From the NCBI GenBank assembly GCA_017513525.1, contig JAFXFC010000019.1, forward strand, positions 62,001 through 126,000: a stretch of 64,000 nt of DNA, written 5' to 3'. Origin of the DNA: Clostridia bacterium. GTDB taxonomy: Bacteria; Bacillota; Clostridia; Oscillospirales; Acutalibacteraceae. Shown here piece after piece: positions 8,051 through 60,273 of the stretch (position 1 is the first letter of the stretch; each line of letters opens with the position of its first letter). The notes under the pieces were generated by a model, which had not been told where the DNA came from, ran no database searches, and was given only the letters and a program-made list of their open reading frames with translations. A program made the translations under genes and the position numbers.

Positions 8051-8059
<9 letters not shown>
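7238..8059 (+). CDS. atpG: F-type ATP synthase subunit gamma
   Basis: The 273-residue central rotor shaft. The N-terminal helix LKGIRSTEKLTKAMKTVSAAK and the C-terminal helix with NTMRSAYDTATAYSGML are the two arms of the coiled coil; SSNKGMCGSFN marks the Rossmann-like middle domain. It begins 2 bases after the fusion gene. The last codons (Lys-Ser-stop, AAATCATAA) coincide exactly with the terminal motif of the repeat at 8051-8249, so the inserted element supplies the stop codon. The usual alanine/asparagine-rich gamma end (EIVGGANAL-like) is missing. Confidence 0.95.
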
Positions 8060-9655
<1,596 letters not shown>

Positions 9656-22308: not shown

Positions 22309-22337
22309 TATTATAAGGTAATGGGCAAATAATATAT

Positions 22338-22452
22338 AAAGTTTAAGCGGAACCAAGCCGTCAGGCTTCCGAAACATTTGCCGAAGGCAAATATATAACT
22401 CGCCGAAGGCGAATATCACTTCATGATTTATCGCAATGCGATAAATTATGAA
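22338..22452 (+). repeat. Mosaic repeat with small palindrome array and AAATTATGA palindrome
   Basis: It begins with TTTAAGCGGAACCAAG and the hairpin AAGCC-GTCA-GGCTT, continues with TTTGCC/GGCAAA and CGCC/GGCG palindromes joined by TATATAACT and AATATCACT, and ends with the GATTTATCGC/GCGATAAATTATGA palindrome. It is a shorter version of the element at 60108-60273 and touches the 3' end of the DUF218 gene. Confidence 0.8.
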
Positions 22453-23193
22453 CTACCCTACTACCCATTGTGCAAGTATGCCCATAAATTCACGCATTAC
22501 ATATGTGGGAAGAAGAGGTAAGGGGGTATCTGCCGATATTGTGTAGCATTTGTAGCCCTGATCTTCAACAGAAATAGTGGCTCTGTAGATATGGAAGTTA
22601 TTGGAAACTACAGCTATATTTTCATTAAGTCCGTTTTCCTTTATTATTTCAGAGGAAAACGCAATATTTTCTCTGGTATTTGTTGAGCGGTCTTCCATAT
22701 ACAGTCTTTCGGGAGCTATTCCTTTTGCTGTCAGTTCCCTATACATACAAAGAGCCTCCGAGATATCTTCATTGGGGCCTTGTCCGCCTGAAAGAACTGC
22801 TACAGACTCGGGATTTTCTTCTAAGAATTCTGCTGCCGCATCTATTCTTAACGATAAAACCTGACTGGGTCTTTCTCCGTATACAGCACAGCCGAGCACC
22901 ACTAAGGTAGAATCCTCAGGGGGTGTTCTTAATGCGGCTTCTATCATAAAACCGCTTTCAACTGCGAATAATGCGATAAATGCAGTATAACCTGCAATTA
23001 AAATGCCTGTGAGCGCCTTCGCCCATTTCTTGTCCTTTGAAGCGGCTTTCAGTTTTTTTCTGAATATTCCCCAAAGGAATAAAACTCCGAAAAACAAAAG
23101 TCCCGCAGCATTTCCGATATTGAATATTCCGCTGAATATGACGGGTATCATAAAAGCGACCCAACCGACAGCACCTATTATAATTCGAATCAT
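22453..23193 (-). CDS. DUF218 (YdcF/SanA-like) membrane protein
   Basis: A 246-residue protein with three or four N-terminal membrane helices (about residues 1-95) and a C-terminal DUF218 domain: VVLGCAVYGERPSQVLSLRIDAA, VLSGGQGPNEDISEA, EDRSTNTREN and VSNNFHIYRA are the family hallmarks. Relatives (SanA, ElyC, YdcF) are linked to envelope and peptidoglycan homeostasis, but the reaction is not settled. I chose the ATG at 23193 because GGTGATGAAA precedes it; upstream in-frame codons overlap the AT-rich promoter region. Confidence 0.88.
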   Translation of the reverse strand: MIRIIIGAVGWVAFMIPVIFSGIFNIGNAAGLLFFGVLFLWGIFRKKLKAASKDKKWAKALTGILIAGYTAFIALFAVESGFMIEAALRTPPEDSTLVVLGCAVYGERPSQVLSLRIDAAAEFLEENPESVAVLSGGQGPNEDISEALCMYRELTAKGIAPERLYMEDRSTNTRENIAFSSEIIKENGLNENIAVVSNNFHIYRATISVEDQGYKCYTISADTPLPLLPTYVMREFMGILAQWVVG

Positions 23194-23345
23194 TTTCATC
23201 ACCGAAATGGATAATACAACAAAATCCAATAAAAATCAACACAGTTAAGCATTTCTTAATCATTTCACAAACTTTCTTAAAACAGAAAATTGACACTTGA
23301 TATTTTAATATTCATATATTATAATATATTTCACAAATCATATCC

Positions 23346-23420
23346 GCTGGTGTGGCTCAATGGCAGAGCAGCTCATTCGTAATGAGCAGGTTGCAGGTTC
23401 GATTCCCGTCACCAGCTCCA
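23346..23420 (+). tRNA. tRNA-Thr (anticodon CGU)
   Basis: A 75-base cloverleaf: acceptor stem GCTGGTG/CACCAGC, D arm GCTC-AATGGCA-GAGC, anticodon arm GCTCA-TTCGTAA-TGAGC with anticodon CGT, and T arm GCAGG-TTCGATT-CCCGT. The 3' CCA is encoded. The T stem holds one A/C mismatch and one G/T pair. A strong terminator follows four bases later. Confidence 0.93.
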
Positions 23421-23467: not shown

Positions 23468-23648
23468 CTAAGTGTGCCTTACGGCACGTGAAGTGCACTC
23501 TGTGCGTGAAGTGATGCTACGCATCGTGAAGTGCCTGCAGGCGTGGGTGGCACACTTTACTTCACTTCGTGCAATTGCACGATGCTTCATTATGCCATCG
23601 GCATAGCTTCACTGCGGTGTAACCGCAACTTCACTGACTTCTTCTGAA
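23468..23648. repeat. Array of palindromes joined by GTGAAGT, then by its complement
   Basis: First half: GTGCC/GGCAC, GCAC/GTGC, GATGC/GCATC and GCC/GGC hairpins, each followed by GTGAAGT. Second half: GTGCA/TGCAC, TATGCC/GGCATA and GCGGT/ACCGC hairpins joined by ACTTCAC-type links, the reverse complement of the first link. So the array is itself roughly an inverted repeat. The 310-base gap before the shikimate kinase gene holds no plausible gene. Confidence 0.85.
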
Positions 23649-54359: not shown

Positions 54360-54382
54360 AGTCTTTCTCCGTAAACAAAATT

Positions 54383-54579
54383 AAATCATAATTTAACAGC
54401 GAGAGCCGTTAAAAATTCGGAATTCGGAATTATGAATTCGGAATTTCGGGACCTGCGGTCAGCATTTTAAATAAAGCGAAGCGGAACAAGACACGAAGTG
54501 TCTTCCTTAATTCTTAATTCCTAATTCTTAATTCCTAATTATCATAATTTGCGGTCATAAGACCGACAAATTATGATTT
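54383..54579 (+). repeat. Intergenic mosaic repeat, copy C, inside the met operon
   Basis: A 197-base element bounded by AAATCATAATTT and AAATTATGATTT, in the same orientation as copy A and opposite to copy B. Modules in order: AACAGC/GCCGTT hairpin, GGAATTC units, GGGACCTGCGGTC block, AAGCGGAACAAG with hairpin GACAC/GTGTC and CTTCC, AATTCTTAATTCC units, and a terminal GCGGTC/GACCG palindrome. It separates metQ from metN. Confidence 0.9.
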
Positions 54580-60085: not shown

Positions 60086-60107
60086 GCGATGCCCCAAAGT
60101 GCGTATA

Positions 60108-60273
60108 TAGAGCGTAAGCGGAACAAGGGCGTCAGCCCTTCCGAAACATTTGCCAAAGGCAAATATATCACTGCCCTCAGGGCAATATCACTGTGCGAAG
60201 CACAATATCACTCGCACTTTAGTGCGAATATCACTAAATCATAATTTATCACTCTGTGATAAATTATGATTTA
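60108..60273 (+). repeat. Mosaic repeat with palindrome array and AAATCATAATTT palindrome
   Basis: It opens with GCGTAAGCGGAACAAG and hairpin GGGC-GTCA-GCCC, then four palindromes (TTTGCC/GGCAAA, GCCCT/AGGGC, GTGC/GCAC, CGCACT/AGTGCG) each followed by AATATCACT, and ends with a perfect palindrome in which AAATCATAATTTATCAC pairs with GTGATAAATTATGATTT. It reaches into the stop codon of the isomerase gene on the minus strand. Confidence 0.88.

Follow-up and report, generated by a model that had tools for sequence, protein, structure and literature searches.

What kind of element is built from short palindromes that all differ, each followed by the same linker? The question is raised by an array near the end of the window, by which we mean the whole stretch of 64,000 nucleotides of Clostridia DNA that was analyzed. 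The first-pass annotation, made from the sequence alone, had placed the array at 60140-60236 and described four palindromes, each followed by the same nine-base linker. The window sequence of 60148-60234 reads ATTTGCCAAAGGCAAAT-atatcac-TGCCCTCAGGGCA-atatcac-TGTGCGAAGCACA-atatcac-TCGCACTTTAGTGCGA-atatcac, with ATATCAC standing 3' of each of four different perfect hairpins. On the plus strand, these are hairpin 1 (60148..60164, ATTTGCC-AAA-GGCAAAT, closing pair A-T), hairpin 2 (60172..60184, TGCCC-TCA-GGGCA), hairpin 3 (60192..60204, TGTGC-GAA-GCACA, with a GAA triloop), and hairpin 4 (60212..60227, TCGCAC-TTTA-GTGCGA). The four copies of the linker, on the same strand, occupy 60165..60171, 60185..60191, 60205..60211, and 60228..60234. 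The nine-base linker is exact for the last three hairpins, each of which is followed by the 9-mer AATATCACT (hairpins 2, 3, and 4; at 60184, 60204, and 60227). Hairpin 1 is followed by ATATCACT only, and the 9-mer is broken there because the closing pair is A-T and not T-A. The outer A/T is thus the closing pair of the stem (T-A in three hairpins, A-T in the first) and the true linker is the 7-mer ATATCAC, which is the part that is constant after all four. The 9-mer has 6 occurrences in the 64-kb window for 0.9 expected, a number that none of 100 shuffles reached.

The array was correctly located in the first-pass annotation, but its ends were missed, as two more components belong to it. On the left is a head (60107..60147, plus strand, ATAGAGCG.AAGCGGAACAAGGGC-GTCA-GCCCTTCCGAAAC) made of a hairpin and a conserved CCGAAAC. 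Its start was set at 60107, where half-copies with differing flanks begin to agree. The head is kept in 14 aligned paralogues, and its stem covaries. On the right is a long terminal palindrome of 39 nt (60235..60273, strand-less, TAAATCATAATTTATCAC-TCT-GTGATAAATTATGATTTA), whose outer end falls on the TAA stop codon of the adjoining minus-strand gene and which is missing from the sister species. The stretch 60107-60273 is half of an element, consisting of a head, one arm, and one long palindrome, and it is flanked by genes resembling those of an esterase and of a sugar-phosphate isomerase. When its plus strand is folded as DNA, the centroid structure has separate hairpins and unpaired linkers.

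Other elements of this type are present in the window. A second half-element lies at the locus 22338, which had been noted as having the same array with two units. It is indeed a half-element with two hairpins, of which only the second is followed by ATATCAC, the first linker being ATATAAC. Its head (22337..22375, plus strand) is followed by the two-unit array (22376..22419, plus strand, ATTTGCCGAAGGCAAAT-atataac-TCGCCGAAGGCGA-atatcac) and by a terminal palindrome (22420..22452, strand-less, TTCATGATTTATCGCAATGCGATAAATTATGAA) that ends beside the stop codon of the gene on the minus strand at 22453-23229. The third member is a divergent array pair (23474..23634, strand-less), with GTGAAGT on the left and ACTTCAC on the right, downstream of the tRNA at 23346-23417; this bidirectional array near a tRNA gene was absent from the earlier annotation. 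Finally, two strand-less elements of a related, hairpin-less type were observed at 8051..8253 and 54381..54578. They have a centre and a terminal palindrome as in the hairpin-array elements, and their arms consist of AATTCGG/AATTCCT 7-mer tandem repeats, complementary between arms, that replace the hairpin arrays.

The genome-wide search for the linker that the first-pass annotation had proposed was run, and the linker is not confined to the two loci of the window. The pattern linker-N4-30-linker has 39 matches in the genome, versus none for a reversed-pattern control, so that the combination of a constant linker with variable self-complementary units, first described at two loci, is confirmed as a genome-wide pattern. 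We also used a linker-blind detector, which looks for a hairpin, 7 nt, another hairpin, and a similar 7 nt. In 64 genome stretches, it identified 201 arrays over both strands, i.e., about 100 places, versus 0-1 in dinucleotide shuffles. The linkers recovered blindly are ATATCAC, ATTTCAC, ACTTCAC, ATATCGC/A, ATATAAC, ATTTCAT, and ATATCAT, and their identity is 6.6 out of 7 positions within an array and 5.4 out of 7 between arrays. The stretches analyzed were those around matches, and, with the exception of the searches for Gut-1 and for patterns, the counts in this work are minimum values.

The complete element has about 310-340 bp, with a centre placed between one array and a second, inverted one and with a long palindrome at either outer end. 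Among the copies with the ACTTCAC linker, eight are complete; they share 88-96% identity over about 315 bp, and their flanks are unrelated. Their order is a palindrome (AAATCATAATTT..AAATTATGATTT), the inverted array (GTGAAGT, four hairpins), a centre with two head hairpins, the direct array (ACTTCAC, four hairpins), and the second palindrome. The copies with ATATCGC/GCGATAT linkers are organized in this way as well, and their centre is GGGACCTGCGGTCGGCATT..ATAGAGCG..AAGCGGAAYAAGG. Long palindromes of the form TCATAATTT..AAATTATGA were found 33 times in the genome and never in the control; they have constant outer arms and inner parts in which the variation is compensatory. In the 25 divergent array pairs, left and right linkers agree at 6.52 out of 7 positions versus 5.44 when shuffled (0 of 2000 shuffles reaching the observed value). 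A comparison of the two sides as terminal inverted repeats revealed that the outer palindrome arms and the linkers are inverted, while the stem sequences of the two arms are unrelated. Since complete copies have GNA loops in the 3' arm of each strand, the arms are inverted repeats of structure. In the DNA fold of a full copy, the left linkers pair with the right ones and the hairpins protrude in a fishbone-like manner (z -12).

A part of this element is already known under another name. The minus strand of 60160..60236 matches the Rfam model of Gut-1 RNA (RF01706) over its full length (model positions 1-77 of 77) with 72.4 bits, above the gathering cut-off of 50. The Rfam consensus has three hairpins and a GUGAAAU linker. 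Weinberg et al. 2010 rated Gut-1 as "certainly" RNA, not cis-regulatory, and "human gut only" (PMC2864571). In our literature search, RF01706 was found only in this description, and no account of it as a repeat was found. Yet this genome has 60 matches to Gut-1, 30 of them above the cut-off. They are scattered over many contigs and often located at the ends of these, which is where repeats that interrupt an assembly are expected. We found matches in all 26 genomes of the genus (1-77 copies each), in 126 of the 295 genomes of the order, and in 5 of 398 in an even sample of the phylum, including two from this order, one of which is this genome, which indicates that the repeat is concentrated in this order. 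The habitat is not restricted to the human gut: among the genomes with copies are some recorded from the caecum of water deer and the rectum of goat (the G014 and G010 loci, which match L053 and L058). While the Rfam family represents 77 nt of a single arm and is described as an sRNA, the array studied here is part of a multicopy repeat of 170-360 bp with inverted arms and terminal palindromes. Gut-1 is probably a fragment of a small repeated DNA element, consisting almost wholly of hairpins, that was misfiled as RNA.

The pairing of the hairpins is strongly conserved. Among the 14 aligned half-elements, 97.2% of the 399 pair cells are paired, and 17 of the 30 pairs have changed on both sides; none of 500 shuffles reach such pairing, and partners slid out of register are 34-45% paired. 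The loops are also of a particular type: 108 of the 182 distinct tri- and tetraloops are GNA/GNNA on the ATATCAC strand, and none are of the complementary type, while such loops are found in 10 of 86 terminators from the same stretches. The closing pair is C-G in 180 of 207 hairpins. The tetraloops of the arrays include GNYA alongside GNRA. GNYA tetraloops are not known to be favoured by RNA; GNRA loops stabilize RNA as well, which leaves some probability to an RNA of the plus strand. As DNA, GNA/GNNA loops form extraordinarily stable mini-hairpins (PMC4686876). Wobble pairs are scarce. In units delimited by a linker on either side, and not filtered for pairing, G-T made up 1.3% of the pairs (0.6% for the other-strand equivalent), compared with 7.0% of G-U in terminators, a control picked by RNA folding, which favours G-U (p=7e-13, a value that, like those for the loops, is inflated by the relatedness of the paralogues and should be read as a large effect, not as an exact probability). 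The mismatches of the plus strand, 13 G-T versus 6 A-C, are in the expected direction and not significant (p=0.17). Given the loop type, the scarcity of wobble, and the dispersal of the copies, we argue from these sequence features that the structure of the hairpins matters, and is kept, at the level of DNA rather than RNA. Loops and wobble likewise point to DNA-level structure for Gut-1.

These observations bear on two other explanations. Gut-1 could be a structured non-coding RNA of the minus strand, produced from a promoter of its own or within the 3' portion of the transcript of the isomerase. This would account for the match at gathering level, the rating as "certainly" RNA (Weinberg 2010, PMC2864571), the strong covariation, and the slightly better fold of the minus strand of the window element as RNA (-78.4 kcal/mol versus -66.3 for the plus strand). 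It remains an unlikely explanation when one considers that there are up to 77 copies per genome, that copies are present or absent between sister species, that the bidirectional arms make both strands "the RNA", and that the DNA-stable loop type is on the opposite strand and G-U pairs are nearly absent. Even less can be said for an inert repeat in which template switching during replication makes and keeps perfect palindromes, resulting in structure without selection. Stems have been documented to arise and to be repaired through template switching (PMC8794818), and the rarity of wobble intermediates would fit it. However, mutation alone does not predict a loop polarity that is constant with respect to the arm (108 loops of the GNA type versus 0 complementary), a constant spacing of 7 nt, or linkers that change jointly in both arms, and we regard this explanation as very improbable.

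The elements are intergenic, multicopy, and palindromic, and relatives have empty sites at both window loci, which shows that copies were gained or lost between closely related genomes. Three related genomes keep the adjacency of the isomerase and the esterase (isomerase 83-85% identical), and in these sister genomes the isomerase stop is 0-11 nt away from the shared terminator, versus about 185 nt in the window. No element is present at the site corresponding to 22338 in a sister genome that shares the gene pair. No target-site duplication was read at these copies, whose ends are not base-precise and whose flanks are too diverged from those of the sister species, and no excision was seen among the copies compared. 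Another species of the genus (L347) carries a lone long palindrome, with no array, directly after the stop of the homologue of the gene at 22453-23229, and a similar lone long palindrome was observed in L345.

The position of the elements relative to genes suggests yet another explanation, i.e., that they are retained as a DNA or mRNA structure at gene ends (a terminator, a transcript stabilizer, or a site for gyrase or the nucleoid) and that their mobility is only historical. Of the 32 long palindromes, 18-19 lie between -12 and +10 nt from the stop codon of a neighbouring gene, and several of them supply this stop themselves. In addition, neighbours could be classified for 40 of the intergenic elements, and 12 of these are located between convergent genes, versus 6 of 52 neighbour pairs. 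Against such a role, sister species have ordinary terminators and no element at the same genes, and the number of copies ranges from 1 to 77 between congeners. We consider it somewhat unlikely. The other candidate is a classical REP/BIME mobilized by a RAYT. REPs are also intergenic palindromes with many copies, often in inverted pairs, and likely recognized as hairpins (PMC2817692, PMC6006769), and the elements described here may work similarly. This genome encodes two divergent RAYT genes (G000:C4:31267-31563 and G000:C23:6974-7381), which score 66 and 78 bits to NF047646, under its cut-off of 80, and divergent RAYT genes are present in many relatives. Across the order, the association between RAYTs and the repeat is weak (odds ratio 2.6, p=1.4e-4, in a Fisher test that takes no account of phylogeny). 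Yet, while RAYT genes are described as always flanked by their REPs (PMC2817692), no arrays were detected beside the two RAYT genes of this genome, an array is near only 1 of 63 loci with RAYT or other Y1 genes, and genomes without any match to RAYT or Y1 carry 19-36 copies. A further defining feature of REPs is GT[AG]G, a tetranucleotide located 0-2 nt from the hairpin on its 5' side (PMC6006769). This foot is absent 5' of the hairpins here, which have TCAC, TCGC, and TAAC on one strand and ATAT, AAAT, and AAGT on the other. We thus rejected RAYT as the mobilizer, given the rarity of arrays near RAYT/Y1 genes and the many copies in RAYT-less genomes, and the classical REP, which fails on the foot and on the flanked RAYT (PMC2817692, PMC6006769); this origin is quite unlikely. 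Constant linkers of 7 nt, variable stems, fixed arms of four hairpins, and long terminal palindromes also set the elements apart from REP/BIME.

Comparison with other known systems gives a similar picture of partial likeness. MITEs, such as Correia or RUP, are also short, non-coding, and dispersed, with inverted ends and presence/absence between relatives, and the repeat described here, short and non-coding, is likewise present or absent at orthologous sites. Unlike in MITEs, the inversion of its ends concerns structure and linker and not sequence, no target duplication was read, and no parent element was found among the Y1 transposases examined. These were the class systematically examined as mobilizer, and no transposase linked to the element was found among them in the genus and the order. 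The ends of IS200/IS605 also have sub-terminal DNA hairpins as recognition units (PMC6006769), but with one hairpin per end, whereas there are about four and a long palindrome here, and tnpA is absent inside the element. A CRISPR-like array was rejected because the variable units are palindromes of a dispersed repeat, the constant part has 7 nt, and there are no non-palindromic spacers. The "inverse of CRISPR" in the first-pass annotation captured the constant linker and the variable palindromes, but it is a mere picture of what is a dispersed repeat with inverted arms, terminal palindromes, and empty sites, in which no trait resembling CRISPR was observed. A phage or plasmid origin was also rejected, as there was no match in the plasmids searched with the window element nor in the phages searched with a full copy. 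Two pattern scans of viral contigs returned 135 stretches, few of which had true hairpin arrays.

The explanation that we favour, and regard as reasonably probable, is that the array forms one of the arms of a dispersed repeat, short and non-coding, which is or was mobile as DNA with the help of a putative enzyme acting in trans. The repeat would be of the REP/BIME/MITE kind, i.e., dispersed, probably mobile, and with ends defined by structure. Its two arms would be terminal inverted repeats at the level of structure and not of sequence, in which the linker, the spacing of the hairpins, and the polarity of the loops are kept while the sequence of the stems can vary freely. The trans-acting enzyme may recognize the linker-spaced hairpins, either single-stranded or extruded, and move the element, and the arms might also pair via their complementary linkers into the fishbone fold. 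Once the element has inserted at the 3' end of a gene, its long palindrome would become the terminator of this gene, and the repeat may be tolerated because it lands at gene ends, where the palindrome can terminate transcription. A more specific proposal, which we find possible but hold only tentatively, is that Gut-1 is no RNA family and instead represents a fragment of an undescribed class of mobile DNA with ends recognized by shape. These ends would be arrays of extraordinarily stable GNA/GNNA mini-hairpins, joined by family-specific linkers of 7 bases, that take up a fishbone fold in extruded cruciforms or single-stranded DNA and that a non-RAYT enzyme moves in trans.

Gut-1 was thus half-known under an RNA name, and what is new is that it belongs to a multicopy repeat with inverted arms and terminal palindromes. 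Annotating each of its copies as an sRNA gene is probably wrong across a large group of gut Clostridia. The element provides a natural case in which many stems retain their structure with their sequence left free, and the loops of its arrays are of the kind that chemists choose for the stability of DNA. The question it raises is which protein reads the linker-hairpin arms. If such an enzyme exists and is found, it would represent a DNA-moving system directed by shape.

Two further observations concern the sites where elements are found. Elements of the ATTTCAC type lie directly at the 3' end of genes for tRNA or similar RNAs (L071, L072, L074, and L077, in other genomes of the order), and their outer hairpin resembles the terminator of the RNA gene, in the same way in different genomes. 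A separate family of 360 bp (AAAAGAGTTGG..ACAATGCTAA, L051 777-1130) has one copy with complementary flanks, AAAAATCCGC..GCGGATTTTT, which are the two arms of a terminator hairpin of the host, as if the copy had landed in its loop. A second case is hinted at by two contig ends (L049 with L050). The complementary flanks suggest that the 360-bp family inserts into the loops of terminators.
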